Shown: positions 16,963-55,300 of the stretch, one piece after another
How positions within the stretch are numbered: position 1 is the stretch's first letter
Layout: every line of letters begins with the position of its first letter
NCBI RefSeq assembly: GCF_964355755.1
Contig: NC_092674.1
Span: forward strand, 1,555,001-1,619,000
From: Antedon mediterranea
Taxonomy: Eukaryota > Echinodermata > Crinoidea > Comatulida > Antedonidae
DNA: 64,000 nucleotides
Direction: 5' to 3'
Program-made: the position numbers and the translations under genes
The notes under the pieces: generated by a model
Databases searched by the model: none
What the model was told of the DNA's origin: nothing
The model's input: only the letters and a program-made list of their open reading frames with translations

Positions 16963-27408
<10,446 letters not shown>

Positions 27409-29529: not shown

Positions 29530-32500
29530 TTACTTTGCTTGCGTTGATGTCTTCTGTTTGTTCATGTTGGTTAACATTTGGCTGATGTACGACGTTAGCA
29601 AATCGTCCATTTTGTAACCCTATAATAATATATATCCGAAATAGTTTAAACATACTAACAACCAGTAGACAACAACAAGATAACTTAAAAATTAATCCTT
29701 CAATTCAGAATAATATGTATTGTTAAAATATCACACACATAGCAAGAGTGTTTGTAATCTCAAGTTGTAAAGTAATATCATTTTATCTAGATATATCCTA
29801 AATTAGAGGAGGGGATAATTCTACTCAAGCATGAGACTACTCTGCCATATAGTATATCATAAAATAATAAAATACCAAACAGCTTACCAGTGAGGTTTCA
29901 CAAAGTAGCTTGGTGCCTCGGACAAGGTTACCAATTGTCATGTGGAAGTAAGTGTTACCACTACTCCAGTTGGAGATCTTGGTGAATGGATAGGTTGCCA
30001 GAGTATCCTGCAAAGAATATCCAATTAACATATCGTCAACTAATATATCATTTGTAGTTGTTTTGTCATTTATATTCAGACATTGCTTTGCCAAAGACAA
30101 TCAAGTTGTCCAGCAATGATCAGGTGAATCTTCCTTGTTTTAAATAATATAATAATTATGCAGATTTCTAGAGCGCACTTCGCCACCAAAGGTGCTCTTA
30201 GGCACTTTTGAATGCTAATAGTAGTAGATCACATAATCCTACCTTTGATTCTGTATCTATTAAGTTGACACCCAGCTTGTTTATGGCAATCAAGAGGGTC
30301 TTTGGATAAGTTGGTTCGGTCGTTTGCTGAAAAAAAAAATGGACAACATATTAGCAAATCAAAAACATAATAATGAATAGAAGATTAATATCATGGAATA
30401 AAAAGTGAAATACTTAGATTTAAATAAAGGTAATACTTACCCTGACTTCAAAGAATGCAGAGCCAAATGTAGGCCATCGATAGATGATCTTGAGGAAGGC
30501 CACCTTTGCCTCATCTCGTGATTTCCCAGAATGCTTGTTGTACGCTGCTACAATGCTCTGATAATCAAATCAAAAGATTTAAGTAAATTAGAGTGCCGAA
30601 AATATTTGAGCTTTTTAAAGATACATAATGTTTAAGTTCCAGGTTAAGCTAAAATTTATTTTCAAATACAATAATTGAAATTTGTATTCCAAGGTCCTGT
30701 AGGAATATTACAAATTTAGTTTGTACACTGTTTATTTGATATTTGGTATAACCTAAGTTTTAAAGTTAAACTTTTAAAAGTTGTATTCAAAAGTATAACT
30801 GGATTAATGCATGCAAAGAGAAACGCATAAAAACACAGTTCATTTATCAAAATAAGTGAATAGAGTATACAGCAGGGAGAATTTTGGATATATTGGAGGA
30901 ATTTTAGACTCACCCTCTTCCAGTCATCAGGCGATTGTTGTCTCACCAAATTAGTTGGCAAGAGTTCCTTCATGACCTTTGGAATGTTCTGGAACTCAGA
31001 CTTATCGTCGCCAAACCTGACACGATACTGGAGAGCTGCAAGGTTTGCAGCTTCGTCTTTCGTACACTTGTGGTAACCACGGAGAAGCTTCGGCAACTCC
31101 TGATGGTAGTGGAAGATGCAATCAGCATTTGGATCTTTACCAGGAACAGTGTTTGTCCACAGTTTCTTCATGAAGAACACTTGGTAGGTTAGAACCGGCA
31201 TTGTTCCTAAAAAAATGCAACATAACATTTTAAATTGTTTCTTATTATATATATATAATCATACTTTTACTATTACTTTCTGCTTATGTTTCATTTGTAT
31301 ACTCAAAGTGAAAAGAACAAGAGGTAATTCACTGTTTAAGATGTAGATTATACAATTGTAAATATTGTTACAAGAGGTATGAGTATCAAAATGAATAATG
31401 CTGCTCTACTTACCGTCCCTACTTGGCCTAGCCTTTCTGATCCAGTCAGTCAAATGTCTCACAAAATCAAAGAAAAAGTCTCCTTCTGGGACACTAATAA
31501 CTGCAAGAGAGAGAATATTTATCAAATAAAAATATTTTATTTATTTTTTATTACACTGAATTTTATATTTAAATCTCTGTCTACACTATCAAACTTTATG
31601 TGATAAAAAATGTGAAGGGCAGACAGTATATGGGCATGATGATGCCATATTTAGGCGTATCACTACCATATTTAGGCGTATCACACTAGTCTGATAGTGT
31701 AGAGCTTTAGAAGGTGTATATCCAAATGGTTTACTATACCTTTGTCAGCAATCTTTACAAATAAACTAAAACCCTCTGCTGATTTCAGTCGAAGACGTTG
31801 TGCGATGTTTTGACAGAAATCTTTTGCTCTTGTACCGGAGTCAACTTCAAAAGCCTAAAAAAATTAACATCATGAAAATCAATCTCAATAATATGTCATT
31901 CTAAAATTTTAAAATAACCACAGTAACGGTAACATTTTGGTAATTAAAGATGCAAGGCATCCAACCCAATTTTGTATTAGAAGAAATCAAGTAATGTTAT
32001 AAAAGTTGCTGAAAAAATTATATAAGATACTAACCTCATCCGTGTCGTCTGGGAAATAGACCTTATGGAATATCTGTGTCGTCTTGTGAATGATTGCCTC
32101 GACTTCTACCAGATGCGGCGGATATTTGCGCTGACCGTATCTGATCGTCTTCTGCAGCCTGTGTATACAATCCATGGCCAACTGATGGCGCTTTGAGCGC
32201 AAGAACTTAGTTACTTCAGGAAGTAAAGTCTGGCTGCAAGCAAAGATACCAGTCATCAACCACATCAACTCCCAGCCTCGCTCTTCACTGAATCTATTTA
32301 AACAAATAAACAATTTTTTTTGTATTTTTAATCATTAATAAAAAATATACAATATAAATATGAAATATATATAAGTTCATAACTAACATAACTAAAGCTC
32401 TGTCCACACTATCAAACTGGTTGGAGAAAAAAAGTGTTTTGTGCCAAAATATGGTAATGACATGCCCAGATATGGTAGTGATATGACATCATGATGTCCA

Positions 32501-33083
32501 TATATGGACACATCACATTTTTTTGTCACATGAAGTTTGATAGTGTAAACAGAGCTTTAGAAGTTGACCACTTCTAAAATATGTCATATTTAAGATATCC
32601 TTTTTGTCATCTTGTGTTAATGTACTGTTTTATGGCATAGAAATAAATATTATAAACACTTACTTTATTTTATTGTTTGTTAGCTGCTTAATAATATGGC
32701 AATATATCTCATCTCTTAAAGGCTCATTCTTTAAAGCGCCCTCAAATATTTGATCGGTGAGCTCATTACCATGTCGGTAGTTTCTCCTGGTAGGATAGTC
32801 TCCCATATATTTCATGATAGGTGCAGAACAAATTAAGGATTATAATATAGTGAAATGATTGGATAAAGTAAGAGTTTAAAATCAGAACTCATTAATTAAA
32901 TTGGCTTTATACAAAAGGATATCCATAAAAGACTCTGTAGACTCCCTCGCTAGTTCATCGTTGCTCATCAGCTTCTTCAGAAGGGGCTGTCTGATTGGTT
33001 CCTTACTGTGACTCCACAACTCGTCTTGTTGGCGCCCTCTTAGAGACCTCACAGCTTTACTCAATGTTCGTTTTGGTGGCGGC
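29530..33083 (-). CDS. MYO7A: MYO7A second MyTH4-FERM unit and C-terminus
   Basis: Reading starts [11 protein letters not shown] and [16 protein letters not shown] (MyTH4). Across the AT-AC intron it continues [12 protein letters not shown] and [12 protein letters not shown], then [19 protein letters not shown] and [13 protein letters not shown]. The FERM part includes [113 protein letters not shown] and the end [18 protein letters not shown]. The stop TAA is at 29530-29532. In vertebrates this unit binds harmonin- and SANS-type scaffolds; the partner here is inferred. Confidence 0.96.
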
Positions 33084-36000
33084 CTGTAAAATATTTGTGT
33101 TACAATTGAATTATTAAGGTTTGATTAAATGTTTGCCCTACTCTGACGTAAAGCTACTCCACAGTAGCAATTACGATTATCAATGTTTGCTAACATATTG
33201 TAAAGAATCGTCTTTGTTACAAATGCTCTTATTAGACCATACTTGTTAGAAGTGTAGAATAGCATGGTAAAACCTATTCATAGACAGTGAGCAAACACTA
33301 TTTTTGATATAGCTACTTAAATTCACTGGACTTCACTGAAATTGATGCCAACCGCAATTGTAAAATTGTTATCGTGTTGGTACTCACAGCAACAGTTTTG
33401 TATTAAATGGGGAAGATCCATCTCCCGATGGTTCTATGTAAGAAACGAGTGCGACAGGGCGGAATCATGTCTCCGTTACTGTATAATGTTTACATTGATG
33501 ATCTGAATGTAGCACTTAGTAGATGTGGGTATGGGTGTAGAACCTCAAATACTGTCCTAAATAATTTATGTTATGCTGATGACATGACTATTATGGATCA
33601 ATCTTTTTATGGGTTGAAAAATATAGTTAAAATATGTGAGCAGTATGGTTTAGAACATGATGTTTATTTATAACGCAAAACATCTGTCTGTATGGTTTTT
33701 TTCTCCAAAGAAGAAACATGGTGAAGTGGTATCAAATATTATGCTAAATAATGATATATTATGTTACATCAATGAAGTGACTTACCTAGGTCATATTTTA
33801 CGTAATAATTTAGATGATTCTAATGACATTAATCGCCAGTATCAAGCTCTTTGAGGTAACACTCTTAGTAGACGTTTTAGTAGATGTAATGAGAAGGTTA
33901 AATGTAATCTGTTCAGGTCGTTCTGTACTAATCTGTACTGTTGTATGTTATGGTCTAACCACACTGTTAAGATTATTAAATCTTTGGAGGTGTGCTACAA
34001 CAACTCATTGAGAATGTTGCTAGGCTTACCTACGCACTGTAGTGATAGTAATATGTTTGCCACGAGGAGAATTCCCTCTTTCTACATGTACGCTAGTGCG
34101 TCTATGGTTTCAGATTAAGAATTGTGAATAGTAAAAACGATCTGGTTAGGTGTACCACAAACTATTTGTTCCGATATTCAAATCTCTACACTAAGTGGGA
34201 AAAACTCCTATTTTAGTTTGATTTTCCGGTTTTGTATTATTTGTTGTATAAGTATATATGGAATATTTATTCTGAAATAAAGTGATCAAATCAAATCAAA
34301 ATCAAATCAAATTGAGGTTACTAGCAATGCAGAGAAGGGATTCTTAATATTAGTTAAATACACTTTGTCAAGGCATACTTGGAGAAGCCACTACAACCAC
34401 AATGGTTCTTCAATGTCTTTTTCAGTCTTTTTGAACTTACCTAAAATGATCAATAGCAAACTCTTCTAATGTATGTGGCTTCTCTGGTGAATCTTGACTG
34501 CTGATGGCCATCTCTGATGGTGACATCAGTCTTTCAGCTAGTTGACTTCTGTCCATTGTAAAAAGAGCCTAACAAAAAAACAATAATAAAAAGAGCCTAT
34601 GAAAATATGTTTCCATATTTAAAATATAGAAAAAATAAAAAAAGAGCCTTTCATAATATGTTTTCATATTTAGAAACAATAATAAATAAGTTAGTAATAA
34701 TGAGAAAGTTACAAAATAGAAAGTTTAAATACAAATTCCCAAAGAAAAGTTAATATTTTGGTCAATTTTACAGTCAACTTGGAATAGTCAATACTGGACA
34801 AGATTGGGCTGGCTTAATATGTCTGGTTTCCAAATGTGTTTTTGGGACCTCTGGGACTTTAAGAAAGGTCCGGTTTCTGGTTATCTGAGAGTCTGGTATT
34901 GGGAGAGTTGACTAAATAACAAATTTCTCATTCTATTGGAACATACCACTATTTCACGGGGAGGTTTAGTCATTGTTGGAAGAACGTATACACAGTCAGC
35001 AGGGAAGTCTCCTTTCTTGCCTGTCCTGTCGTTCTCTCCATAGCACCAGCCACTGTTCATTACAGAGTCTCCGTTCTCGTGTTCTAATATGATCAAGTCT
35101 CCCTTCTGGAAACTCAAGAAAGATGAACCTTCTCCTAACAAAAATAAAATTACATTTATTTAGGAATTTGGTATCAAGTATCTATTTACTGAATTTGTCT
35201 GAGAAACCTGAAGAATGTTTTTATACCAATTCTTGTCGCATCTTGTTTCTGCAGTAGTTGTTCATTGTGTAAACTTGAATTGAACTTACCTTGGCTAGGA
35301 TTGTCTTGTAGAGCTACAACAAATCGTGATTTCTTTTTCAAGCCTTCGAGAAATCCTACGATCAAGTCACGAATGTCTTCCGCATTTGATGATGTGAACG
35401 TGAATTCATCGCCTTTGACCGTAAGCAAGGTGAAGCTTTGACCATGAAGTTTACCAGTTCTACAAAACAGTTCAAACATTTACAGTTGGATGTGCATTTA
35501 GTAAAGCATCCTTGCGTTGCGTCGCTAGTGGGAACCAAGCTTTAAATAAAGTAAGTTGGAACAGCTTCTATATGCAGCGCCTATACAGTAGTTCCCAGAA
35601 CACATGTGAAAATAGCATTGTTATAATAAGCATGGGCGTACACATGTTGTTGTATACCTTACCTGCTACTAGACACCTGTGTGATTTCTGGGAATGATAA
35701 TTCAAGTAACACCTGTTCCAGGTCATCTACCACATAAACACCGGTCCAGTTCACAGCCACAATCACATCATTTTTTGGCAGGCTCGGTCCTGAGAATTTA
35801 TAGGCTTCGTAGAATCGTGAAAAGAGCAGCGGCCATTTAAAGCGAGCGTAGTCCACTACATCTTCTTTGACTCGCATGCCTTCAACGTTATCACGAACAT
35901 AGTAACTCTGTAAATTACGATTAAAATAGCATATTCCATTATTTACATTGGGGTGTCAAGTCAAACAAGAAATCACATTAGAATTTATAGCTTACATTTC

Positions 36001-39000
36001 TATGCTCTTGTCGAACTAACTCAGCCCATCTTTCAATTGTCTTGGACCCAGTCATTGCACTGTCTGGGATGTACATAGGCAGTAAGCCAATCAGCCGATC
36101 CGTCACCATCTGAGGACCATACTCTACATAATACTGCTGAGCTGCTGTTGCGGCCAAATCAGTATCCTGTCAAAAAACAATTATTAATTTATGGTTTATT
36201 TGTTACACCTTTTGTTATAGAATTTATCCAATGGTAGCGATTATGAGTAACTTTTTTTAATCTCACAGATTTCTTATCTCTACATTTTATTTGAACTTCA
36301 TTGCAATTTTTTTACCAGCTTACTCAATTTTAATAATGTATTTTTAATTTTCAAATAAAAAAAAGCTTGATTAGATAACCAATAGATAACATACCCGATC
36401 ACATCTGTACTCTCCAAATTTAATCCCTCTGACTACTTGCTGGTAGATGAGGTTTGTGCCAACAGGATCTTCACGAGCATCATGCCACGGAGCAAATATC
36501 TCCTTACGGAAAAACAGTCGCCATGGCGCATTGCGCTCCTGGGCACCTTGTTCTTTTGCGTATTGTTCACATTGTGAGATGGCATCCATAACATGATCAC
36601 CACCGCTGCCAAGTGAAGACACCTATTAAAAAAATGTGCAATGTGTTTAGCAGTGAGAAAGCAAGCTAAATTAGTTATTCTATGGTTGTCTTGAAATAGA
36701 AAAAACAATACCGTATATCCTCTGGTATAATCCCACTTAGGGTCTAATCCCACCCCTGATTTATGTCCCACACTTTTGGTCTGGATGTAGGCCTCTCTCT
36801 AGCCAGTTCAGATGAGTTTTTACAAGAAATTTTTACCAATAATTTTTTCTCTGAACCAGGCTTTCTCTGGGTATTCCTACCCATCAAAGTCACCCAAATT
36901 TCGTGTTTTAGGGGAGTAGGATTATACCAGCGGTATATTTGTTTCTCATGGTTTGTCAAACTACAATGGAAAACAGTACCTTGTCAAAGAGTGCGATATA
37001 AAGAGAGAATCCAAACTGGTCATTAAGTCCAATCTTCTCTGCCAGCATCTGGCAGAGTTCTCTTGCAGTAGTTGCAGAGTCTGCTAGTAGTGTCTTTGTT
37101 GTGCCATCCATGAATGTTATCGGCAGCATAATGGGTTTCTTGGATTTTGTGGCCTATAAGATTGTCCAAAATAATGTTATACTGACTAGTGAAAAATGTA
37201 TTCATGTTATATAGCATAGAATGTATTCATAATATTAAACTTTAAAGTTCTGTCTACACTATCAAACTAACTTGACAAAAAAGGTATGATAGTGACATTT
37301 ACAAATATGGTAGTGATATGACATCATTGTATCCATTTTTTGTCACATAAAATTTGATAGTGCAGACAGAGTGTTAAGCAAACAAACAAAAATAATCCAA
37401 ACAAATTTGACCAACCAACCTGTAGCTCCAACCAGCTTGGAGGTTGATTCCTGGTGCCATTGGCAAACGTCCTTCGTAGTCGTTCTTCACAGTATGGTGC
37501 ATAACCTGGTGGACCCTCACTTATGAAGCAACGCAGGTACTTGACAAACTAAAGAGCAAATTGATAGAATTTTGATTTCTCATGTTTGTGTAAACTATGC
37601 TTATTTTTTGGTTTTATTTCCCAAGCATCCAACAGCAAGCACAAACTTGCCAATTACGCATAAACTATTTTTATAATTTATCGTGCTTATAAACTAAGTC
37701 TCATTTGAGGCATAGGGAATGGAGTCGAAAGAGTCGTGGGTTACAACCCTAGCACTAGGTCAGGATTGAACCATGGACTTTGGGATTGGAAGGCAAGCAT
37801 GTTAACCACCAAGCAACAGCTCCACTACAAAAGATTTATTAAATAATTCCTATAGTACTTATGCCTCCTATTAAGAATTTAAATTTAGCTTAATTTGTGA
37901 ATACATCAATAATTTCTAAGCCATTGCAACAAATGTCTGTAATTTTAAACAATAGGAATGATTAATTGAGGCGTCTTACCCGATCAGTTGGGGCAAAGCA
38001 TCCAACACAAAGTGAGAGTAGAATCCATCCTCTGGCATGACTTCCTTTAGCTGTGTTGGCACTCAGTTGTTTACAGATCATGCAGTAAATCTCATCTCTG
38101 TAAAGAAGAAGGAGATTTAATTAACACCAACAGCAGGCCACCTATATCAATTCTAAAAGCTCTGTCTGCACTATCAAACTAGTTTGACAAAAAGTGTGAT
38201 GTGCCTAAACATAGTGGTGATATGTTTAAATATGGCAGTGATATATATAGTGATATATATAGATAGATTTGTTGTCACATAAAGTTTGATAGTGTAGACA
38301 GAGCTTAATACATTTGTGTAGGTCTAGTGTACTAAACCAATGTGAGTACTGTATTTCAAACTGAATGTGATTTTCTCATGATGTATGTTACCTTAACTCT
38401 GGTCGTAATATTCCATGTCCAATAATAAAATGTAGTTTTTCCAAATTCGATGTTGGTCTGTCAATAATCATGCTCTGATTTACATCAATTTCTTCACCGT
38501 CTCGGATTCTTTCAGCGACGTCCTGCGAGATCTTTGATTTTCTTTTCAGCGTCAACGATACAAGTTTTCTGCGAACAGTGTTTTTACGTTGTGAAGCTGT
38601 AGTAGTACTCATGGATGCCTATAAAAACAATATTTAAAAGTATGACACAAAAAATAATATAGTAAATTAATACCGTAGTTGATATAAACGGTTACATATA
38701 GAACACAGGATTGTGTCTTAATAATTGCCAAGAAGTTTCAATCAAACTAAAATCTATTTTAACTTTTAAGTAAAACTATACTAAATGCTGAATACTAATT
38801 CAAATGTTTTAAGCTCTGTCTGCACTATCAAACTACTTTGACAAAAAAAGTGTGATGTGCCCATATATGGTGGTGATATGCCTAAAAATGGTAGTGATTA
38901 ACATCATCATGAGCACATCACATAAAGTTTGATAGTGTGGACAGAGCTTTAGACTTTTGTTTCTGTTTTTATAAAATTCTTTTTTGCAAAGCCATCTAAG

Positions 39001-42000: not shown

Positions 42001-45000
42001 AAATTGCTGTGTTGAAAAATAAGAATGATTCAACAAATTTACTTCATTCTTTCTTCTAACTTATTAAATTATTATTCAATTATTCTAACTTATTTAATAG
42101 TATCTATTCTCTTGTTTCTTATTTATTTTACAATAAATATTTATTGTTGAATATATACAATTGGTCAGAATGTTTTCTAGCATTGCAATAAAAAATAACA
42201 AAAATTGTGTTTAATAAATCAGAAACAATCAAGTTGTTTACAAACCTGGAATAGGTATATCCTGTGACGAATAAAGTGAAACTTGAATGATAGTGTTCTG
42301 GACCTGATACAGGCTTGTAACCTCAAGAAACCTTTCCTCATCTAAAACAAAGATATCAACAGAAATACTTACACAGAGTTATCCTATGTAAAAGTGTCAA
42401 TTTGACAGTATACTAATAAACAGTATATTAATAAATCAAATAGCAACAACATGTCGGTTTTCATGTTGGCATCAAACCACTTTGAACTAAGATAAACCTA
42501 CCTTTAAAAAGCGTACTCGATCTGCAAACTTTCTCCAAGAGCGTTGGATGTAGATGGCGCTTCTCCTCATTGCTACGTATCGTTTGCGGTAGAACCATCC
42601 ACGCACCACCTTCTGTATTATGATGCATTTCTCAGCTAAGGCTCGGTCTCTAGCTTGCTCTAACAATAAATCTTGTGCATCCTGTATGTGCATAATATCA
42701 GAAATATTAAAATTATTAGTCTACTATCAAATTCCCAGACACACTCAGGCTCTCCTACTATGTCTGATTTATAACTATTTTTTTTAACTGACTGTATTAA
42801 TGAAGCCAGTTGCAAATAAAACTTTAATATTAATCTTAAAAAGCTATACCTTTAAGAACACTTTCTGAGTTCCCAATTGCCAGTCTTGGCCGCCTAACAT
42901 GTCTGAGCAGATACTCTTACTTGCCGCTTTACAGTTCTCTTTATGTGCTGGTTTTATTCCGTGTCCAAGTATCCTATACCGCGCTACAAAATCATAGAAT
43001 GTGTGACGTATTGGATATCCAGCACGACGTATACTATGAAGAAACAAGATTTAAATATTGTGTTTAATTCATAATTTGTTTATTTCATTCAATATAATTC
43101 AATTCAACTTTATTTCAGACAAACTGTTCATATGAAACATATACATACAATAAAAAGAAGAGAAATACAAAGCATTATGTGACAACCGTCATGGAGACAG
43201 GACCAAGATGGAATTAATCAATGATAATGTACAATCAAATAAAGGAGTGAGTAAAGAAGAAACGTAAGACGTACCTAATGGTCTCCATCATACCAGAGTA
43301 ACGTAGTTGCCTTACAACAAGTTCACGCTCAAAGAACTGGAGGAAAATAAAATGATGGTAATAATTAGTTTGAAGCATTATCATCAAGCCAAAATGTCAA
43401 ACCTGTTATTTCCTAGATATACAAATAGTATCTTGGTTAAACAAAGGCAATCTAACAACAGGATTCCGAGTTCCGGAGATCAAAGGGTTTATCTGTGGCT
43501 GCGAAACGATCAGTTCTACGCCCTTACAGATACAGTGTGCAGCGAAGAAAATGTACATAGTAAAGTACTGTTGGTATTTGTCGCAGCCAGACATAAGATC
43601 AAAAGACTGTTATTATTTTTATCAAGGTGTTAGATTGTCTTGGTTTAACTGACTTCAGTACCATAGTCTCAACTTACGCTTGGCTTCTTAAACTCATTAG
43701 GTTTGATACAACGCACAAAGAATGGTTGGCATGCGTTAAGCGTCTTCATAAGCGCATCAAGTGATTTCTTAAATTGCGCTCCTAACGTTGAGGACGTCTT
43801 CCTGGTGTCCCTGTTAGATTCCAGATCAGTCTTAAAGAGCATTTTGAGGAAGCCGTTTTTGCTCTTCTTAATTAATTCTAAAAAGTCTGGGCTAAATGTG
43901 TCTCTGTTCTTGTCCAGGAAGCCTGAAAGAGAAAAGATTCTTTTTATTTAGCCACAATACAAAATTAATTTAACGATGCAATAAATACTGAATTAAATAA
44001 ATTCATTGACCATTACGGATTTCCACTTTTGATATTGGCATTCAAATGGCTATAATCAACTCTTTTCTGATATATATTCCAACTCTTTTCTCTAAGTTTG
44101 GTAGCAATACTATAAGTTACCAACTCTTTTCTCTAAGTTTGGTAGCAGTACCATAACTTACCAACTCTTTTCTCTAAGTTTGGTAGCAATACTATAAGTT
44201 ACCAACTCTTTTCTCTAAGTTTGGTAGCAGTACCATAACTTACCAACTCTTTTCTCCAAGTTTGGTAGCAGTACGATAACTTACCAACTCTTTTCTCTAA
44301 GTTTGGTAGCAATACTATAAGTTACCAACTCTTTTCTCTAAGTTTGGTAGCAGTACCATAACTTACCAACTCTTTTCTCCAAGTTTGGTAGCAGTACAAT
44401 AACTTACCAATAGTTTCATAGAACACCTGTCCAGCAAAATGGTTGATTCCAAATTGCGTTCCTGCTGCGGACCGAGCCTTTACATACAGTGGGTTTTTAC
44501 TGTGTTGTTGATTTAATTTCTGTAACATAGTCTTGTCTGTACCCTGTTAAGTTAAAACATACAATATTATCACATTCTGCAATACAGACACCCTTCTTTG
44601 TATAATGAGAGATTTGATTCAACATGCTATTTTACTTAATTTTACCCCTTATTTCACACAAGAGTGTGAAACAGGCTCTATACCATGGATTATTAAAGAA
44701 TCAACGAAGGAGAGAATTGTTACATTCACACAATCATTAAAGCCTGGTTTCCATAAAATCGCTACACGACAGAGCGTAGCGATTCTATGGAAACGCTAGA
44801 ATTTATCGGGGATCGAGTACGCGAGCGCTAAATATTTTTTGGTACGTGTATACGATTCATCGCCGACAAAATTGGCAAAGTTGAACATGGTTGAACTTTG
44901 CCGATTTGACTGCGATGAATCGGGGAGCCTTCCCGATTGCGTCGGCGACATCTGCGCATGTAGCGATTTTAATGGAAACCAGGCTTTATATAAATGATAC

Positions 45001-48000
45001 ATATTTTTGGTATATTTATGTGCATGTTGAGATGAGTGGCAACGTTAATACAAATATAGAATCTATGTTATTCCTTATGACCATTTACACACAACGCGGA
45101 GTTAGTTGTATCTTTAATTATGGTTGGTGTAGTTTTTGGAGATTTTTCAATTATAAATCTATGCGAATGTAAATAATGTTAAATTGAAGTACTTCTAAAG
45201 GCTAATTTACACAGATAGAGTGGTAACGTTAATACAAATATAGAATCTATGTTATTCCTTATGACCATTTACACAAAACACAGAGGTTTTTGCTCAGGAT
45301 TCTACGTTGGACAAGCTACGTGGTTTTCCGCTTCCATTACTGCTTTTGTGCAAATTTACCCCTTATATTCCATTATATACCTGTGCCTTTTTTGTTGTTA
45401 GTCTTTATATCTTTATACATGTTCTTTCTTATGTGCTGCAGTAATTTTGTAACTATGGACATGAATCCGAAATATAAGTAAAATGAAATGATATCACACA
45501 AGTGTAAAACAGGTTTCTATAACATGGAATATAAAAGAATCAATGAGGAAGAGAATGTTTGCAAATCTTACCCTCGGAAAGCGACTTTCTTCATCAACGA
45601 GTGCAAGGATGTTAAGCGGTTTGACAGCTATCATGTCCAGTGTTTCTTGGTTGTCTACAAACTGGATATGCTGCCACTCGATCCCTTCTCTTTCATACTC
45701 TTCCTACAATAAATAGAGAAATCATTTTTCTTAATCTAATTTAATTATAAATGTATGTTCACATTGATAACGGATTCGGTACAGTGACCAAGAGAAAACT
45801 GGTATTTCAATATCACACACATGTTTTGTATGGAATTTGGAATGAGTAAAGCTCTGTCTACACTATCAAATTAGTTGATAAAAAAAACTGTGATGCACCC
45901 AAATATGGTAGTAATATGCCCAAATATGGTAGTGATATGACATTATCCATTAGTTTGATAGTGTAGACAGAGCTTTACTCATTCCAAATTCCATACAAAA
46001 CATGTGTGTGATATTGAAATACCAGTTTTCAGCTTTAGTGTGAATGGTTCTATTCTTAGACACTACACTCATGTTTCATGATTTTTCCAGACTCAGTCTG
46101 AAAGCAGGTTTACAATATAAGGGTTAAATAGTTTAAATAGACTAAAAACTAAATGTATTAAATATATTACCTGTTCAAGTTTAAAAATGTGCTGAACGAA
46201 GAATTGTTGCAGATTCTCATTAGCATAATTTATGCACATTTGTTCAAAACTGGTAAATAACAAATATTAATATAAATATAAATAGTACAAACAAATAAAC
46301 AAATTCAAACATTATAAACAAAATCAATACTTGTGAGAATTTAAACATATCTAACAAATTCTATTCAATACATATAAATAATTTGGAGAATTTGTTATAG
46401 AAAGGCCTTATATCAATTGATGCGTTAATTAAGTTTCACTAAAATAAATAAAGGGAACAATCCAAATCCAACATTTCAACATGAAAAATCAAACATTTTT
46501 TTGCAATCTTAGTATCTAAACTATATATTGTTGTTTTATGTTTACAACAAAATTGTTTACCTGTTTTTTCCAAAATTCTCAAATCCAAAAATGTCTAGCA
46601 CACCGATACTTAAGCGTAAATCTTTGGAGCTCGTTTTGGCGCGATATGTAGCATCGTTTACTTTTCCCACAACCCAGATAAACATTCGTCCATATATGGC
46701 TTTGACAAACGCATCTCGCATGTCAATAGCCTTTGCTTTGTTGACAGGAGATACAACTACTTCTCCGGCAGCTACCGTTCGTTTTGTGGACAGAGCTGTC
46801 TCTAAAGCATTCAGGTCAACCTGTAAAAGAAAAAGACATTATAAAATGTTGAATAGAACAGTTATAATGAGTCATATTGCAAGACTTATTAAACATGTGA
46901 AAGGCTAACATATACTGTATATCCTCGGGTCTAATCCAACCCCCTACTTTATGTCTGATTTCACAAACAGGCATATCCCAAACGGTATAGTCCCAGTATT
47001 GACTTTTGGTCTGGATGTAGGCCTCTCTCTATCTAGGTCAGATGAGTTTTGCATAATAATCATTTCATGATCCAGGGTTTTTTGGGTATAGTTCTACCCT
47101 CCCAAAATCGGCCCAATTTCGTGACCTACAGAGGATACGATAATCTTAATAGTCTGTCAAAATAGATACCAATAAGGCGTTCATAATTTCCGATTTTTAG
47201 CTCTCAAAAGGCAGTGTTCCTCATCTCTAACTCTGCCCCCCTAATTCCTAATATGAAAAGATTGCGAATATTGAAGCTGAATGTAGCTACCGCAATGAAT
47301 CCTTACTAACCTCAAGAATTTTGGCGACTGCTTCTGTCTGTTTGTGACTCCTGAAGCCAATGGCATCCAAGTTCGATGTCTCAATGGCGTCATACTCAAT
47401 GTTTCCAAACTCTAGAACGGATGCTAGAAGTTTCATGACTTCCCAGATCTCACCGTCACTGAAGTTGAGCACTTTCATGGCAGATCGGATGTCTGCAAAG
47501 TCTTTGACATCATCACGACCATCACAAACCAGACAGTTTCCCTACAAAATGAAAAAAGTGCATTTTAATTATCTTCGTAATTTTTAATGTTTTTTCTATT
47601 TAATCCCAAGAGCTTTATCGGTGTACAAACAACAAGTTTTTCAATATTTTATATATTTGATAATAAATGCTGTGCAAGCAGCGAATTCATCATTAACTGA
47701 CGTAAGAAAATGCGCATCCAATAATTGTGCTTGGACCCGCCAGCATAAAATCAAACCGGGTTGGTCGCCATTCGTTGCTACGTAGACCCTGACTTGTTTC
47801 ACCTCACGTACTTGATTACGTGCTGTAACAGGCATTGTTGCATAAAATCAATTTATTTTCTTTAGCAACTGTTTGTAGTACTTTTTCTTCAGTTTCCACT
47901 CGTGATTACACAATACAGCATTTCGCATTGATGCATTGCTGTGTTGCGTTACATCTCTAGGGGGAATCATGCTAAAAAGGGAAACATTTTACACTTTTCA

Positions 48001-51000
48001 GGAAAATATTTAAAGTAGTACCTGAGTAAGATAGTAATAGTCCTCTGCCCTGGTAAGACCCAGTTGTTGTTTCTCGCTAGATGACATACCAGCAAGCATA
48101 CAGTAAAATATATGATAATTACGTTCCTCTTCAAGTTGGCCGATAATTCGTGACTTCTCAAGCAGATATTGCTCAATTTGAGCGCCCTCTATTGCTCCTT
48201 GCTGATTGAAGTGAATGTCAATATATTTTCCAAATCTACTAGAATTGTCGTTTCGTATAGTTTTAGCATTTCCCAGAGCTGTTTTTGGAGGAATGAGAGA
48301 ATATTAGTCTAGAATATTTGTGGGAACTCATTTGTTGAGTGGGAACTTGAATGTGTTCTCAATGGTGAGCAACAGCAAAAGACTGACGCATAGTTTTTAT
48401 ATCTCACCTTCTAGGATTGGATTAGATTCAAGAATCTGTTGCTCAATCCACGAGTGTTGAGCACTGACTGCAGCTAAGAACTGGAGGATGAGCTTAGTGT
48501 TCTCAGTCTTGCCTGCTCCACTCTCACCACTATAAGAGAAGATTGCATTTATAGGAAAAGACAATGCTGGAGATGTAAGGCTTGTCCGTATATGGGCACA
48601 GCACATTTTTTTGTCACATAAAGTATGTTAGTGTAGACAGAGCGTAACGTACCTAATGATGACGCATTGGTTTTGCTGCCCTCGCAGCATGCGATAGTAT
48701 GCATTATCAGCGATGGCAAAGATGTGCGGTGGTTTCTCACCAATCTTTTTATCTTTGTACTCTGTGATCTGTTGGCCTGTGTAGATTGGTAGGATCTGGT
48801 AGGGGTTCACTGCTACTAGAATGGATCCAGTAAAAGTCTACAAGAAAAAATAAATATACATGGAAGTCTTTATAAAGTATACAAGAAAAAATTAAGATTA
48901 AATGGATCCAGTGAAAGTCTTTATAAAATATACAAGAGAAAATACATGATTAAATGGATCCAGTGAAAGTCTTCATACGATATACAAGAGACTAAATGTA
49001 TGATTGAGACAATTGTTAGAATTCACATCTACAATTAAATAGATTTAATTTGGAAACATTTTCTTTTATACTGCAAATAACACATTTCCCTAATAAATTA
49101 ATAAAAAGTTAAAATGTATATTAGCATTAAATAGAATTAAAGTCAACCTAATATAATAATAAATATCCTAAACCAAACATTGAAGGATCTATTTTGGTAT
49201 TAGCTACCAGCACATAATTCAAAGTAAAACATTGATATACAGTACAGCTCTTTATTACCTTGAATTTACCTTTAACTTCCGACATTGGGACATTAGTTAA
49301 ATGTATAATGAATGTTCTTTGTCTATTGTGTTTATATTATATATATCTATACTAAATACATATTTTGTTTAAAGATCCCCAAAAATCATGAAAAATAAAG
49401 ATTTATAAATCAGATTTTAACAGCCCATTTTGCAGTTTTAATTAAGTTATTCACTTGCATAGAAAAAAAATTATCATTTCACTTATAAAAAGTCAAAATT
49501 GTAACCAAAAACCATTGTCTGACAGACAATTTAAGTATTTTTTGCTGTTTTTTTTTGGATCCAGTTTTTGGTCAAAGTGAATAACTGTTATTTGACATTA
49601 AAATGGCATATCCAACACAAATATATCTTTAATAACATAAAGCCTGATATCTAACAACTATTTCTCTAATTTCTCAAGATGATCACAAAGACAGCACCTG
49701 CTAATACTTTCACTGTCATTTAATAAATACAAATTCAACTGATTTGTAGAAAGATACACAGCCAATGGCAAAAAGGATGAAAACATGTTTATATAATATT
49801 ACTAGCGAGGGGTCGAGACAAAGCCAAGATGGATCGTGATGGATGTATTTATACGTCAAATTTTAGGACAATACATCTTTAAAAACCTTAGAATTCTTCA
49901 CAATAAATATAAATAAATAATAATAATTGCTTATATAGTGCTTTTCCACATTGATTAAAGCACTACACATTATGATTAGGTCTACAATTTTGATTTACAA
50001 TTTTTAGATATAAAAATAAAGATCTCTATTAATTAAAATTACTGTACATATAGGAAATAAATACATATATATAATATAGTAAATACAAAGCTTGTTTAAA
50101 AAAAAGTTATATTTCCATATGACAGCAAAAGTAAGCAACAAAATAAAAATACATAAAAATAATACATATCTCTATGTTTGGTTTATGATCATTCAATATG
50201 CAGAATTTAGATTTTTTATTGACTTTTAAATACTCCAATACAAATTGAGAAAAATCAATATCGACTCTTTTAATTTGATCCCTAGTTTCCCGGGAGGTGA
50301 CAAAAGAATGATTGAAGAATGAGATGGTCCCTAGATGCAGGTGTTATATGCACGTTTAAAAATAATGTAGTCATTTTATTTTTACAATAAGGCCAAATAA
50401 AAAAATATACTTGTTAAGCGTCACACCCTCATACATTTTCAGGGGCGGGGGGACGGTTTTTTTTTTTTTTTTTTTACTTTTTATAGAGGTATATTTTTGC
50501 GCGGTGGACGTTTTTCCCCACTTTTTTAGGACGAAACGTCAAACTTTTAAAATGCGAAACAGAACAAAATTGACTATGTATGAAATATTATTGCTTATGA
50601 CAAAATTGAGTTTTGTATTGTTTATATCCAGACGTAATTAAAACATTAAATTTAATTGCCACCAAGCGAAATTGTAGGCCTTAGGCTAACTAATCCGTCC
50701 AAGGTGCTACCCCAACCTCACTCATCGGCCATCCGCCGACTCTCGCTCGACTCATCTATCAAGAAATTCCCTATCGCGAGAAGCATGATTTGGTCTCAAT
50801 AATACTAAATAGTGGGCTGATTTATAGTTTGAAAACAGCTTACGGCATTTCTTAAGTGAATTTTTATTCAACGTATTCATTCTTCTTTGATGAATCCTTT
50901 GCCAATTGCTGTGTAAATCAGTATTTAAAGTTGTGATGCAAAAAGTGTATGTAATTATTCCGGTTATTCCAGGCAGGTAAACCAGGCATAAGGAAACCCA

Positions 51001-52303
51001 TCGCCCAACAGGACCTCGTGGTGTGCCGATCTCGAGCGCGAGATCATCGTAAACAAAATTGGTAGAGTCCATTATGTATAGGGTGTTTCCTATTTACGAA
51101 CCTATAAAAAAACGCGCTTCGACCACTGTGTAGGCAAAATATTGATTTCGTTAAATCCCTAAATTGATAATCGCGTATTCTGTAATCACGTGACTGATGA
51201 TGTAATCATCAGCGACGTACTAAATGCACATGATTTAATGTGTTGGGGAAAAAGCTTGCTGTTTACCACATTACATGATTCACGGTGCTATTCGCGTTTC
51301 CTTTACGTAAATCGGCGGCGTGTAAATGAAACAATTGTTTTCACCAATTTGCCGTTGTCGACATAGAGCGATCGGCGGCTAGCGTTGTCTAAGCTAAAAA
51401 GTATGTATTTTTTCAAAAATTACACTAGCCTAACAAACATTTGCTAGTTTTGAAATTTTCAAATAGCAATTATGAAGAATCTACTAGCAAAATGCTAGTT
51501 TGCTAGCGTGAATTTCGAGCCCTACTCTGGAGCTGGGTCGGGCCGCTGAACTTTCCGTTGTATATCGGTAAAAAAAAAATAAAAATAAAAAGAGAGGCGG
51601 CTGGATAATCAGGAGCGGGCGGTGACGCTTAACAAGTATGTTTTTTTATTTGGCCTAATATAAAGTTTTTATTCCTATGGATACTTACGTATATCAAGTT
51701 TTCTTGATATCTGATCAACAGATTACGCAATATTCCAGCTTCGTGGAGATCACCTAAACGTATCATGTCCTCAACGCCCTCTATGGATGTAATGTGCATC
51801 ATCCGCAGCTTCTGTGCCAGATCTGCTGACATCCAATGATCCTGAAAAAAAAAAAATTATTGATACAAATTATCAGATCTGTTTATGGTGAAGAAACCAC
51901 ATACATTAAAAGAAAGTTACAGAAAGTAACTTGCTCACTATTAGACTCATTTTCTTGAATAATTCAAGCTCAAAACTTACATAAAAAGTGTTATTATAAT
52001 AAATTAATGAAGATTACTGATGAAACTTGATGAATTACACGAGATGGGGAAGGGAATACACTCATGAAGTTAATAATAATAAATAAATAATAAAAAATAG
52101 GCTTTATACTATGAGGCAGTAACAATGTTGAATGGAGGATAAATATTATCCAAATAGAATTAGGAATAATTGATTACCTTGCCCTCATCGTCTTGCAGCT
52201 GAAGTTGACCTGAATCGGCAATCTTGACCCGAGCGCCAATGGGTACATCATTTGACTGTTTCTTGTTCTGTTTACGTGGATCTTCCAGCCACACATAATC
52301 ACC
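29530..52303 (-). CDS. MYO7A: Unconventional myosin VIIa
   Basis: Forty-one coding exons give 2176 codons plus stop in one consistent frame (vertebrate MYO7A is about 2215 aa). Exons from 5' to 3': 52178-52303, 51689-51841, 48653-48837, 48408-48529, 48022-48278, 47311-47541, 46561-46820, 46171-46249, 45572-45703, 44408-44543, 43678-43922, 43275-43336, 42850-43033, 42502-42681, 42246-42341, 41801-41923, 41596-41703, 41072-41272, 40470-40679, 40122-40205, 39883-39978, 38392-38618, 37980-38097, 37420-37548, 36980-37153, 36395-36622, 35996-36166, 35663-35907, 35290-35459, 34947-35134, 34441-34568, 32923-33083, 32664-32820, 32035-32293, 31740-31854, 31414-31500, 30914-31206, 30441-30557, 30243-30326, 29888-30007, 29530-29619. 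The product is an actin-based motor that works in microvilli and stereocilia; the tail binds adhesion and scaffold partners. The start exon (Met and a few residues before GDYVWLEDP) was not found. Domain blocks are described separately. The intron 32821-32922 is of the AT-AC type. Confidence 0.97.
31570..31710. mobile_element. MITE family A copy
   Basis: Left CTCTGTCTACACTATCAAAC; right CTGATAGTGTAGAGC is shortened. Two internal TAGGCGTATCAC repeats. It lies in the MYO7A intron between 31500 and 31740. Confidence 0.7.
32393..32560. mobile_element. MITE family A copy, full length
   Basis: CTAAAGCTCTGTCCACACTA and its mirror TAGTGTAAACAGAGCTTTAG bound the element. Internal blocks GTAGTGATATGACATCATGA and CACATTTTTTTGTCACATGA are typical. 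It lies in the MYO7A intron between 32293 and 32664. Confidence 0.85.
32821..32922 (-). other. U12-type AT-AC intron of MYO7A
   Basis: On the minus strand the exon ending TCTTTTATGG is followed by ATATCCTTTT, the exact U12 AT-AC donor consensus. The intron ends TCCTTAATTTGTTCTGCAC, with the TCCTTAAT branch-point element about 12 nt from the AC. Splicing here gives [12 protein letters not shown], the conserved MyTH4 sequence in frame; no GT-AG choice does. The intron is 102 bp. Confidence 0.88.
33400..34320 (+). mobile_element. Non-LTR retrotransposon fragment (RT domain), broken
   Basis: The plus strand reads reverse-transcriptase motifs: [29 protein letters not shown] (the YADD active site), and after a frame break [15 protein letters not shown]. 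Stops and at least two frameshifts disable it. The 3' tail is a TCAAA-type repeat (GATCAAATCAAATCAAAA at about 34287). It is 5'-truncated and antisense inside the MYO7A intron between 33083 and 34441. Confidence 0.82.
34441..35134 (-). CDS. MYO7A: MYO7A SH3 domain and linker exons
   Basis: Exon 34947-35134 encodes the SH3 domain ([45 protein letters not shown]). Exon 34441-34568 encodes the linker to the second MyTH4 ([11 protein letters not shown] at its end). This SH3 sits between the two MyTH4-FERM units as in all class VII myosins. Confidence 0.94.
35290..40679 (-). CDS. MYO7A: MYO7A first MyTH4-FERM unit
   Basis: It opens with an acidic linker ([17 protein letters not shown]) and the MyTH4 start (FAATYFQGG). 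[15 protein letters not shown] and the linker with KIYNTLGR follow, then [35 protein letters not shown] and [17 protein letters not shown]. The FERM part runs from [19 protein letters not shown] through [50 protein letters not shown] and [18 protein letters not shown]. MyTH4-FERM units bind cargo adaptors and fold back on the motor to inhibit it. A possible extra 27-nt exon at 39230-39256 falls in the variable linker. Confidence 0.95.
35503..35544. mobile_element. MITE family B fragment (one end)
   Basis: It matches only the right end of family B (TCCTTGCGTTGCGTC, then AGTGGGAACCAAGCTT). It sits 40 bp from the 3' splice site of the 35290-35459 MYO7A exon. Confidence 0.6.
36708..36950. mobile_element. 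MITE family D copy 1
   Basis: ACCGTATATCCTCTGGTATA at the left is mirrored by GGATTATACCAGCGGTATAT at the right. Interior blocks TTTTGGTCTGGATGTAGGCC and CAGATGAGTTTT recur in copy 2 at 46912. Non-coding, in a MYO7A intron. Confidence 0.7.
37242..37376. mobile_element. MITE family A copy
   Basis: Left AGTTCTGTCTACACTATC, right TTTGATAGTGCAGACAGAG. Internal GTAGTGATATGACATCATTG. It lies in the MYO7A intron between 37153 and 37420. Confidence 0.78.
37680..37828 (-). mobile_element. tRNA-derived SINE, family X, copy 2
   Basis: It shares AAACTAAGTCTCA, GGGTTACAACCCTAGCACTA and AGGCAAGCATGTTAACCACC with the copy at 21050. It is a MYO7A intronic insertion, same orientation as the first copy. Confidence 0.6.
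38154..38308. mobile_element. MITE family A copy
   Basis: Left AGCTCTGTCTGCACTATCAA, right TTTGATAGTGTAGACAGAGC. The interior has a local GATATATATAGT duplication. It lies 56 bp from the 3' splice site of the 37980-38097 exon. Confidence 0.82.
38811..38952. mobile_element. MITE family A copy
   Basis: Left AGCTCTGTCTGCACTATCAA, right TTTGATAGTGTGGACAGAGC. It shares the G in CTGCAC with the copy at 38154, so the two may be close relatives. Confidence 0.82.
39230..39256 (-). CDS. MYO7A: Possible 27-nt cassette microexon of MYO7A
   Basis: On the minus strand CATTCCACAG precedes 27 nt that read RSLYGSNKM in frame, followed by GTAGAC. Both flanking exons (39883-39978 and 38392-38618) meet at phase 0, so inclusion adds nine residues and skipping keeps the frame. 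It lies in the variable linker after KIYNTLGR. There is no transcript evidence here, and a polypyrimidine tract is only moderate. Confidence 0.45.
39454..39613. mobile_element. hAT-like MITE
   Basis: It has 12-13-bp inverted ends, CAGTGGCGTAACG and TGTTACGCCACTG. Eight-base flanks (ACTCAGAC left, ACTCCAAC right) match at six positions, consistent with a decayed 8-bp target duplication. CAGTG-type ends with 8-bp duplications are usual for hAT elements. Confidence 0.65.
41072..42681 (-). CDS. MYO7A: MYO7A neck: IQ motifs and charged helix
   Basis: Exons 42502-42681, 42246-42341 and 41801-41923 carry the light-chain-binding IQ repeats ([36 protein letters not shown], and [10 protein letters not shown] then [10 protein letters not shown]). 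Exons 41596-41703 and 41072-41272 are rich in K, R and E ([27 protein letters not shown]), consistent with the single-alpha-helix or short coiled coil that follows the IQ region in myosin VII. The block ends with an acidic FGEILAEDN segment. Confidence 0.93.
41383..41560 (+). mobile_element. tRNA-derived SINE, family Y, copy 1
   Basis: It contains GTGGTCTAATGGTTAGGAC (A-box region) and CCAATCTCGGTTGGGGCGA (B-box region), followed by a shared body GACTTTTTCTCATTCTCACA and TTTCCTCATCTTTATCATTT. Copy 2 is at 60359. The anticodon region is deleted here. It lies in a MYO7A intron. Confidence 0.7.
42850..52303 (-). CDS. MYO7A: MYO7A motor domain exons
   Basis: This block encodes the ATPase and actin-binding head. 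It starts GDYVWLEDP (the N-terminal SH3-like subdomain). The P-loop GESGAGKT spans the 48653-48837 and 48408-48529 junction. Switch [10 protein letters not shown] is in 48022-48278 and switch [10 protein letters not shown] in 46561-46820. The relay and strut regions follow, then [17 protein letters not shown] and [11 protein letters not shown] near the converter. Two departures from the usual family sequence are worth noting: ALGNAKT where AFGNAKT is standard, and a Ser at the 43275-43336 to 42850-43033 junction ([10 protein letters not shown], normally TIRIRRAGYP). Both follow directly from the splice sites seen. Confidence 0.95.
44090..44408. repeat. 41-bp tandem repeat carrying copies of a MYO7A 5' splice site
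   Basis: The unit on the plus strand is CCAACTCTTTTCTCTAAGTT then TGGTAGCAGTACCATAACTTA, about 7.5 copies. It starts at the donor of exon 44408-44543. On the minus strand each unit ends AGAGTTG followed by GTAAGTTAT or GTAACTTAT. Four copies have a strong GTAAGT and three the weaker GTAACT, besides the true site. Confidence 0.93.
44739..44990. mobile_element. MITE family C
   Basis: AAAGCCTGGTTTCCATAAAA, then TCGCTACA, is mirrored by TGTAGCGATTTTAATGGAAA and CCAGGCTTTA. The interior is GC-richer than its surroundings (CGCGAGCGC, CGTCGGCGAC) and has inner inverted parts (ATTCATCGCCGAC, ATCGGGGAG). It is a single copy here, about 250 bp, non-coding. Confidence 0.8.
45030..45285. repeat. Direct repeat pair of about 58 bp
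   Basis: AACGTTAATACAAATATAGA through ATGACCATTTACACA occurs at about 45040-45094 and 45225-45276 with very few differences. Larger flanking segments (about 44650-44720 and 45497-45557, both with AAACAGG and TTAAAGAATCAA-like blocks) are also diverged copies of each other, so this MYO7A intron was built by duplication. Confidence 0.7.
45795..46029. repeat. Large palindrome around a MITE family A copy
   Basis: The family A copy at 45848-45976 is flanked on both sides by inverted copies of the same about 50-bp sequence (AAAACTGGTATTTCAATATC at the left; its complement ends at 46029). The arms are therefore about 80 bp and near-perfect, including non-MITE sequence. Confidence 0.9.
46912..47140. 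mobile_element. MITE family D copy 2
   Basis: It shares CTGTATATCCTCGGGTCTAA, TTTTGGTCTGGATGTAGGCC and the CCCAATTTCGTG block with the copy at 36708. The right terminus is less clear. It lies in the MYO7A intron between 46820 and 47311. Confidence 0.6.
48574..48648. mobile_element. MITE family A half-copy filling a 123-bp intron
   Basis: Only the right half remains (CACATTTTTTTGTCACATAA and TTAGTGTAGACAGAGCG). It ends about 4 nt from the GT of the 48653-48837 exon donor and makes up most of the intron 48530-48652. Confidence 0.75.
50389..51657. mobile_element. 1.27-kb non-autonomous DNA transposon with long inverted ends
   Basis: AAGGCCAAATAAAAAAATAT and ACTTGTTAAGCGTCAC at the left are mirrored by GTGACGCTTAACAAGTATG and TTATTTGGCCTAA at the right. 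A GGGGCGGGGGGAC block follows the left end, as in the element at 12726. The interior has no transposase; a minus-strand ORF of 106 codons (50752-51072) is unrecognised. A CTAGCAAAATGCTAGTTTGC repeat cluster lies near the right end. It is in the MYO7A intron between 48837 and 51689. Confidence 0.75.
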
Positions 52304-55300
52304 CTGTAAACAAACGAATCATTCCTACAATTAAGCACTTGTCAATTGTATGACCCACTATACGACCCCAGGAGAGGTGCATCATGGGTGCGTCATTTAC
52401 AAATAATTACAATTAATAATTAATTATAATTATTATTAATAATTAAAAACACACGCTAGTTTGTAATGTAATCGCCGTGTAAAAAACTGTGTGATACCAC
52501 TATATTACAATTTGAAAGACTTTTATGTGAATCAGATTGGAATGTCAATAATAAAACATTAATATCACTAATAATTGATTATCATCAACAATTATGGTGA
52601 TTTCTCTGTAATCTTGCAGTCCAACTTTCTAGAATTTAAATCTCACAGGTTTTGAAAACTACTAGAATTGTAATTTTCCATAAATTCCATTACACTACTA
52701 ATAACTCTACAAAAATACAATAGCATTCATGTCCCTGTATTAGCACAATTCATTCATTCAACAAATATCGTAACAACACAATTTTGTTGAATGTACTCAG
52801 TGGAGCGTGCGATGGTGGTTTGTGACACCTCTTGCCACAGTACCTCTGATCACGGTTGAACGCACACAAACGACTACTCCCTTTAATACGGCTGACGCTG
52901 TGCGTTGGTGCTAGGATTAGTGCAAAAAGGGTGTGTGTCATTATTTGATGATAACGGCCTTAACGGAATTCCTTACTTCGTAGGGAGACCCAATATAATA
53001 AATACATGGATAAAATTAGGTATATTTCATCCCTTTGGCTGGTACAATATTCTGGCAAAGAATCTGGTCGTCTGAATATAGTACATATTAAAAAGATTGA
53101 AATTTTGTTTGAGACCTACAATAAGAAACATATGATACTGAAGATAAATATTCTCCGTGCATGCATTACTGTTTTCACCAATTACGAAGACTTATTTGTT
53201 AAAAAATTGATACCAATGCAGATATTCCATATTTTAGTATCTATTGACATTAAAGGCAAAACTTAATTGAAAATCTATTTTCTTTGTAACAGTGAATTCA
53301 TGCTTATCTATGATAAACATTTACTCCGCATCAATCAATAACAAAAAGGTAAATAAATGGTCGAAGCAAGGGCAAAGGTTTTGCCATTTTAGTCAATTTA
53401 GATACACTGTACAGTATAATGCGGAAATTAAACCCAAGCTGGTAGACACAGAGAGAGGGGTTCAAAGTATTAAACAAACGCTTGTGCCCTTTAAAACTAA
53501 AGGCCGGAAATTATGAAATATGCCTAATTATCTTATCTCCTGACGACTTTTTGCAGCAAAAAAGTCTCCTGTAAAATCATCATCATAAAATCATGGGTAC
53601 GGACATGATTGACGAAAACGTTATGTTGTTGTTATTGTAGTGTAATGTTGTAAATTTTAGTTTTACCATTAGACCAAAAAGAAAATGATAACTTGGTTTG
53701 TCAATGTAATTACATTTTCACGTTAAAATATATTAATTACGTCACAACATATGTTGCCCATCTTTGATTGTTATTTGATATTAGGATATTATTATAGGCT
53801 TCTAATATATTCATTGTTCATTTATTAATATGGTAAAGTTATCAAATTACTGAAAATGCCAATATTGACAATTACACAGTTAATATGTGGAAGGTAGTCA
53901 ATGTACTGTATGCAAAAAGAATTGAATTTTAAATTGTACTTTAAAAGACATCATGTAATTGGCCTACGGCTGTTGGGTGTGATTGAGTATAAAATAAATA
54001 AATAAATTGAGGTGACGGAAGTGAAGTACTGAACACATCAGAGGTGGATACAGGAAAACATTTTATATTAATATCTGTCAAAAATTGATACAAAATAATG
54101 TTATTTAGCTGTCAAAATGGGGGAGCACGCACCCCACGCCTTACCCCGCACCACACGCCTTACCCTCTGGATCTACCCCCATGCACGTTATCAATTATCA
54201 AATGACAAAGTTAAACAGGAAATGCTTCTGAGTACAAGTGGGTTTTCAGTCGTATTTTGAATGTGTTTGAACATTTTCTTATGTCTTTACATTATAGTCT
54301 TTATTAGTTGGTAATATTATACAATGTATAAGAAAGAAATTAGCAATTGAGGTAGAGGAGAGGTTGCTAAGGAAACGTACACACCCTTTACAGTATGCTT
54401 TGCCTATCCACTATTCTTTAGAATCAAGTAAAATTTTAAGTTTGTGAAGGTCAGTTACAAATACTGTAAGTAAAATATTAAAATGTTTTCAATAAGTTTC
54501 AAGAATTAAGAAAATTGAACGAAACTGAAATTAAAGCAGAGCTACAGAGTAGGGAGTGACTCAGATTAAACAGTAAGTCTGTTCTTTATGTTATTTACTT
54601 ACTGACTGGTATCAGTTGTATTATATGTTAACCCCTTGTAGTATGTGCTGGCAATTGTTTGCCAAATGGGCAGTCCTAACAACTCTGCTACACGTTTTAC
54701 ATACATCAGTTGTGTCTGATTTGCATTTAGGATTAATAATAAATTTGATGTATGAAAAACTTTCTGCAAGATTCGAACCTGATTCCCTTAATGACATACT
54801 GTACCATACCATTAGACCAGAGTAAGATATTTCACAGATGTACTATTCATATTATGCACAGTACTGTAATTATATGCTATTTTGTAAAAGTTATTCTGAA
54901 AAAAAAAACATCAAAACTTACTTTAGTTAAAACGACCATTGTTGCTGTCAGATGTAACCATACATGTGTAACAAAATATTGACTCTCTTGTGAGAATGAC
55001 AGGAGCTTGTTACAGCTTTGAGATCAACGTGGTACTGATGCCTTAGATGCTCAGAAGACCAGATACTTGATGCGATTCAACTCTAATAAGACCAAATACA
55101 TTTCATAAGAAATCAACATGATGTGCATTGTACTTCATGAATATTTCTATGAAAACTGCTTTCATTTTAAAAATATTTTTGTCAACGATTCTTTTGACTG
55201 TTTTATCCATTCTTTACTACTTCCTATGTATTTTTGAATATTTTATTGGTGATGATGATAGATTACGATACTTAAATTACTGTACTTGCTCCTATATTAA

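Follow-up and report, generated by a model that had tools for sequence, protein, structure and literature searches.

The MYO7A locus

The stretch of DNA analysed here, 64,000 nucleotides in length and referred to as the window, corresponds to C5:1555001-1619000 of a 354-Mb assembly comprising 18 contigs. The gene content marks the genome as that of an animal; a COX1 search gave no match. Its minus strand carries a MYO7A gene, the C-terminal half of which (29530..38618) was modelled as 20 exons and 19 introns, 18 of them with GT-AG and one with AT-AC ends; the count of 19 introns refers to this half of the gene only. The model consists of a single 1086-codon open frame, which contains no defect and terminates with a TAA at 29532..29530. 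Further upstream, exon pieces encoding the motor and the first part of the neck were located at 42490..52318 (minus strand, boundaries approximate), the motor region yielding 1061.9 bits to MYO7A and 648.3 bits to MYO10.

For assignment of the gene, its parts were compared separately with myosin chains and the tail was searched with Pfam. The second tail unit scored 784.5 bits against MYO7A and 592.8 bits against MYO7B, the first tail unit including SH3 790.2 and 487.9 bits, respectively, and Pfam returned two MyTH4 domains, parts of FERM domains and an SH3 domain. The layout is that of MYO7A, with a motor followed by two MyTH4-FERM units and an SH3 domain between them, each part being best matched by a myosin-VIIa chain. 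A spliced stretch of 193 residues obtained 275.9 bits to the myosin-VIIa chain 5mv9, which we take to be the human protein, and 193 bits and lower to myosin-VIIb. When the genome was searched with these 193 residues, strong matches were confined to the MYO7A gene (three exons, each with an E value of at most 1.1e-28), followed by the first MyTH4 unit of the same gene (E 8.7e-4) and a site on C1 (E 0.16). The tail and motor scores and the Pfam domains bear out the assignment to MYO7A and its second MyTH4 domain made in a first-pass annotation of the sequence. The gene may predate the split between MYO7A and MYO7B.

Two further features were observed among the MYO7A introns. Frames resembling a reverse transcriptase, recognised by eye at 33321-34280 on the plus strand and thus antisense to MYO7A, are situated in a 1357-nt intron just upstream of the exon that precedes the AT-AC intron. 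A short repeat, whose ends resemble AAGCTCTGTCTACACTATCAAACT, occurs in several introns of the gene (31572-38960) and also at about 22878-23930 (5 copies of D1, 4 copies of D2, and inverted pairs), and looks like a small inverted-repeat element.

Position and signals of the AT-AC intron

The AT-AC intron with U12-type signals occupies 32821..32922 on the minus strand (102 nt, phase 1). It is flanked by an upstream exon at 32923..33083, which belongs to the second MyTH4 domain and ends with ..ESTESFM G, and a downstream exon at 32664..32820, which starts with CT ATC ATG (..IMKYMGDYP..). The intron begins at 32922, the A of ATATCCTTTT, and finishes at 32821, the C of TTCTGCAC; in minus-strand order, the sequence reads ..GAGTCTTTTATGG (exon) / ATATCCTTTTGTATAAAG..ATAATCCTTAATTTGTTCTGCAC (intron) / CTATCATGAAATATATGGGAGACTATCC.. 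(exon).

The donor consensus of U12-type introns is RTATCCTTT, and their branch consensus TTCCTTRAY. The 5' splice site ATATCCTTTT (32913..32922) matches RTATCCTTTT at 10/10 positions, with C at both +5 and +6, and is predicted to pair with the 5' end of U11 (7 base pairs including G-U, 6 without) and with U6atac (likewise 7 including G-U, 6 without). The branch element ATCCTTAAT (32832..32840) matches at 8/9 positions with one mismatch, and would form 6 base pairs with U12 (UCCUUA/UAAGGA). Its two adenosines are placed 12 and 13 nt before the end of the intron, where the 3' splice site AC is found at 32821..32822; C or T occupies 14/20 of the bases preceding this AC. For U12-type introns, an optimal distance of 11-13 nt between branch and 3' splice site and the lack of a distinct polypyrimidine tract have been described (PMC3584512). 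Over donor positions +3 to +9 the AT-AC intron agrees with the U12-type pattern at 7/7 positions, and the other 18 modelled introns, all GT-AG, at 1-4 of 7; it is the only AT-AC intron among the 19 modelled in the C-terminal half. The coordinates, the exact donor match and the branch element about 12 nt from the AC end had all been given in the first-pass annotation and were recovered unchanged, with the strand, on which it was silent, now determined as minus. A structured intron was considered as well and rejected (fold energy z-score 0.61).

Definition of the junction by the protein sequence

For the junction, splices were enumerated between donors at 32990 to 32841 and acceptors at 32870 to 32741, and the 3583 that were in frame and free of stops were retained and scored by alignment to MYO7A and MYO7B. 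The AT-AC splice 32922/32821 ranks first with a score of 545. The runners-up are displaced from it by a few bases and have ends other than GT-AG, GC-AG or AT-AC (GG-GC, 540; TT-CA, 537), and the second-best of the 24 AT-AC splices scores 513. The best of 7 GC-AG splices reaches 417, and AT-AG and GT-AC alternatives were ruled out in the same enumeration. As the flanking bases differ, the junction cannot be slid. Joining of the exons at phase 1 creates an Ala codon (G|CT) and restores a conserved 12-residue reading of MYO7A, and the spliced protein aligns to 5mv9 without a gap over the junction, in agreement with the earlier proposal that this reading is restored by the AT-AC splice only. It had also been proposed that a gene finder limited to GT-AG would extend the exon to a false stop; translation of the unspliced sequence confirmed this, the frame entering the intron and meeting a stop 13 residues after FM.

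Chance expectation and genome-wide motif control

Among the 127,980 positions of both strands of the window, RTATCCTTTT was counted 3 times, including the MYO7A site. A branch element that matches at least 8/9 positions and whose eighth base lies 11-13 nt from a randomly chosen end has a frequency of 0.16% of positions. If independent, donor and branch would coincide with a probability of about 4e-8 per candidate junction. Three further sites of the shorter motif RTATCCTT were evaluated. The one at 32595 (plus) is antisense within a MYO7A intron and was dismissed, as was the one at 26210 (plus), judged by reading the sequence alone; the third, at 22598 (minus), sits at a junction of an MCM7 gene.

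A genome-wide search with the pattern ATATCCTTN{55,85}TCCTTRAYN{9,14}AC gave 16 matches including the MYO7A intron, compared to 10 for a reversed-pattern control. Because the motif pair is thus near chance genome-wide, the proof lies in its occurrence exactly at a junction already set by the protein sequence. Twelve of the other 15 matches were inspected, the remaining three being overlapping repeat copies on C9. Two of the twelve, L015 and L018, are open across the join (90 and 99 codons), and the rest have shorter frames. The best joined frames of 10/12 matches, excluding L013 and L019 (frames of 22 and 19), had no match in Pfam, and the two longest (L015, L018) none among solved structures; on the basis of open frames and, for 10, Pfam, none of the 12 was tied to a gene.

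Minor spliceosome components and further minor-type introns

The genome was found to encode all four minor-spliceosome RNAs searched for, each matched over the whole model and with a score above the Rfam gathering score: U6atac (136.6 bits), U12 (125.7 bits), U4atac (97.6 bits) and U11 (88.6 bits, with a second copy at 82.9 bits). A second U6atac match at C7:8523554-8523655 (L002; 33.7 bits, gathering score 33) is probably a decayed copy. A relative of CCDC84/CENATAC is represented on C8, where a single locus gave five matches, the best with 70.3 bits. Three matches to zf-U11-48K are weak evidence, as the same family also matches in an archaeal control genome.

An AT-AC intron was also located in PHB2 (C3:7914702..7912030, L020), with a length of 2673 nt, phase 0 and the donor ATATCCTTTC. 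A branch-like element AACCTTAAC matches at 7/9 positions and lies 13 nt from the end; an alternative, TTTGTTAAC, lies 19 nt from the end and also matches at 7/9. The joined flanks read QAEGEAESAIM|LGEAISQNPGYLKLRKIRAA. For both fly and human, a published table includes PHB2 among the genes with an AT-AC intron of U12 type (PMC2831892). AT-AC ends combined with a minor-type donor are therefore present in another conserved gene of this genome besides MYO7A. The PHB2 intron resembles the MYO7A intron in its AT-AC ends, minor-type donor and branch-like element near the end, but is found in another gene and differs in length (2673 versus 102 nt) and phase (0 versus 1).

Within the window, the MCM7 junction mentioned above belongs to an intron at 22598..22409 (minus strand) of 190 nt, with GT-AG ends, phase 0 and the donor GTATCCTTTG. 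Its branch-like element TTTCTTAGC matches at 7/9 positions, 13 nt from the end, with a G at the usual second adenosine. The gene was identified by its best score of 167 bits to a solved MCM7 chain; a tandem array nearby gives rise to repeated frames. The MCM7 intron may be U12-type as well, of the GT-AG subtype, and would then be the second of its class in the window.

Interpretation and alternative readings

Taken with its signals, the segment 32922..32821 of the minus strand is almost certainly a genuine U12-type AT-AC intron within the second MyTH4 domain of MYO7A, from which we infer its removal by the minor spliceosome. It shares the donor, branch element, spacing, termini and a phase other than 0 with U12-type AT-AC introns, and, as expected of a genome with such introns, minor snRNA genes are present; no structural difference from the class was seen.

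That the intron serves mainly as a regulated retention switch, yielding either a short myosin with a truncated tail or an mRNA that decays, is unlikely. The open frame that runs on into the intron would suit such a switch, as would the relatively high basal retention described for A-type minor introns (PMC8280824); most retained introns would, however, truncate their proteins likewise, and a retention switch would supplement rather than replace the U12-type reading. Removal of the AT-AC intron by the major (U2) spliceosome, as for some sodium-channel introns, is very improbable. AT-AC ends alone do not prove the class of an intron (PMC2831892, PMC3584512), and U2-type AT-AC introns such as SCN4A intron 21 and its kin have the same termini, but in sodium-channel genes their +5 base is G (PMC2831892), where the MYO7A intron has C. 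Its whole donor fits the U12-type consensus, as do the branch element and its spacing.

An ordinary GT-AG structure with another donor or acceptor, or a tiny exon within the 102 nt, is scarcely credible, in spite of a donor-like GTATAA inside the intron at 32912: none of the 8 GT-AG splices scores above 459, compared with 545 for the AT-AC splice, and the top one lacks the conserved MGDYP; as the protein alignment is free of gaps across the junction, no residues are missing that a micro-exon could supply. A GT-AG intron with an extra exon, which the first-pass annotation had named among the observations that would overturn its reading, was not seen. An assembly error or pseudogene, of which no sign was seen, can be set aside with near certainty, given a 1086-codon frame that is intact over 20 modelled exons to its terminal stop and the homologous motor exons.

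For the U12-type intron of MYO7A, the established pathway would proceed as follows. The U11/U12 di-snRNP would bind ATATCCTTTT and ATCCTTAAT together, the U4atac/U6atac.U5 particle would join next, and U6atac would displace U11 from the 5' splice site; either branch adenosine would then attack, and the exons would be joined at G|CT (Ala). In human cells, the splicing of AT-AN minor introns is promoted by CENATAC (PMC8280824). The MYO7A intron, being A-type (AT-AN), would be expected to depend on this factor, and its splicing to be less efficient than that of GT-AG minor introns. Were it retained, 13 residues would follow FM before the stop, and either what remains of the second MyTH4-FERM tail would be lost or the mRNA would be exposed to decay. 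Use of the junction, its splicing rate and any control of MYO7A output through U12-type splicing are what we infer from these signals.

Human counterpart and evolutionary conservation

In the alignment to the 5mv9 chain (527 residues), which reaches position 498, the split Ala corresponds to position 88. Assuming a length of 2215 for human MYO7A, with 29 more residues from chain position 498 to the C-terminus, the split Ala is therefore residue 1776 of the human protein. We believe that human MYO7A has an exon boundary at c.5326/c.5327, in phase 1 of the codon for residue 1776, and that a deletion c.5326+3_5326+6delATCC is among its variants; from this name, the human donor would be NTATCC. 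On this basis, the human intron after c.5326 would share the Ala codon, phase 1 and the NTATCC donor with the intron described here, and a minor intron may occupy the corresponding position in human MYO7A.

In the literature, MYO7A and 'minor spliceosome' co-occur as terms. In the papers examined, searches for the human MYO7A splice-variant names led to SLC25A42 or to number fragments from reference lists and not to the variants themselves, and MYO7A was absent from the literature matches on minor-intron terms, among the matches listed. A search for MYO and MCM terms gave nothing on the MYO7A gene in PMC6717393, PMC13216214, PMC6865273 and PMC7644725, and MYO7 and crinkled had 0 occurrences in PMC2831892; of the 19 fly U12-type introns tabulated there, rows 9-19 were covered.

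On balance, we give an even chance to an ancestral origin of this minor intron in animal MYO7A, with its codon position preserved between the crinoid lineage and human. The output of MYO7A would then have depended on the minor spliceosome for more than half a billion years, and on CENATAC too where the intron is AT-AC.

The MYO7A intron is a further example of a known intron class. Since both this class and the machinery that removes it are well established, the gain lies in annotation and in a testable link, and not in a new mechanism. For annotation, gene finders restricted to GT-AG introns truncate or misjoin the MYO7A exon. As to the link, human MYO7A is the gene of a form of deaf-blindness (Usher 1B), and if it has a minor intron, a deafness-blindness gene would join those that are sensitive to faults of the minor spliceosome; if the intron is indeed ancestral, sensory-hair and photoreceptor defects would be testable consequences of minor-spliceosome disease.
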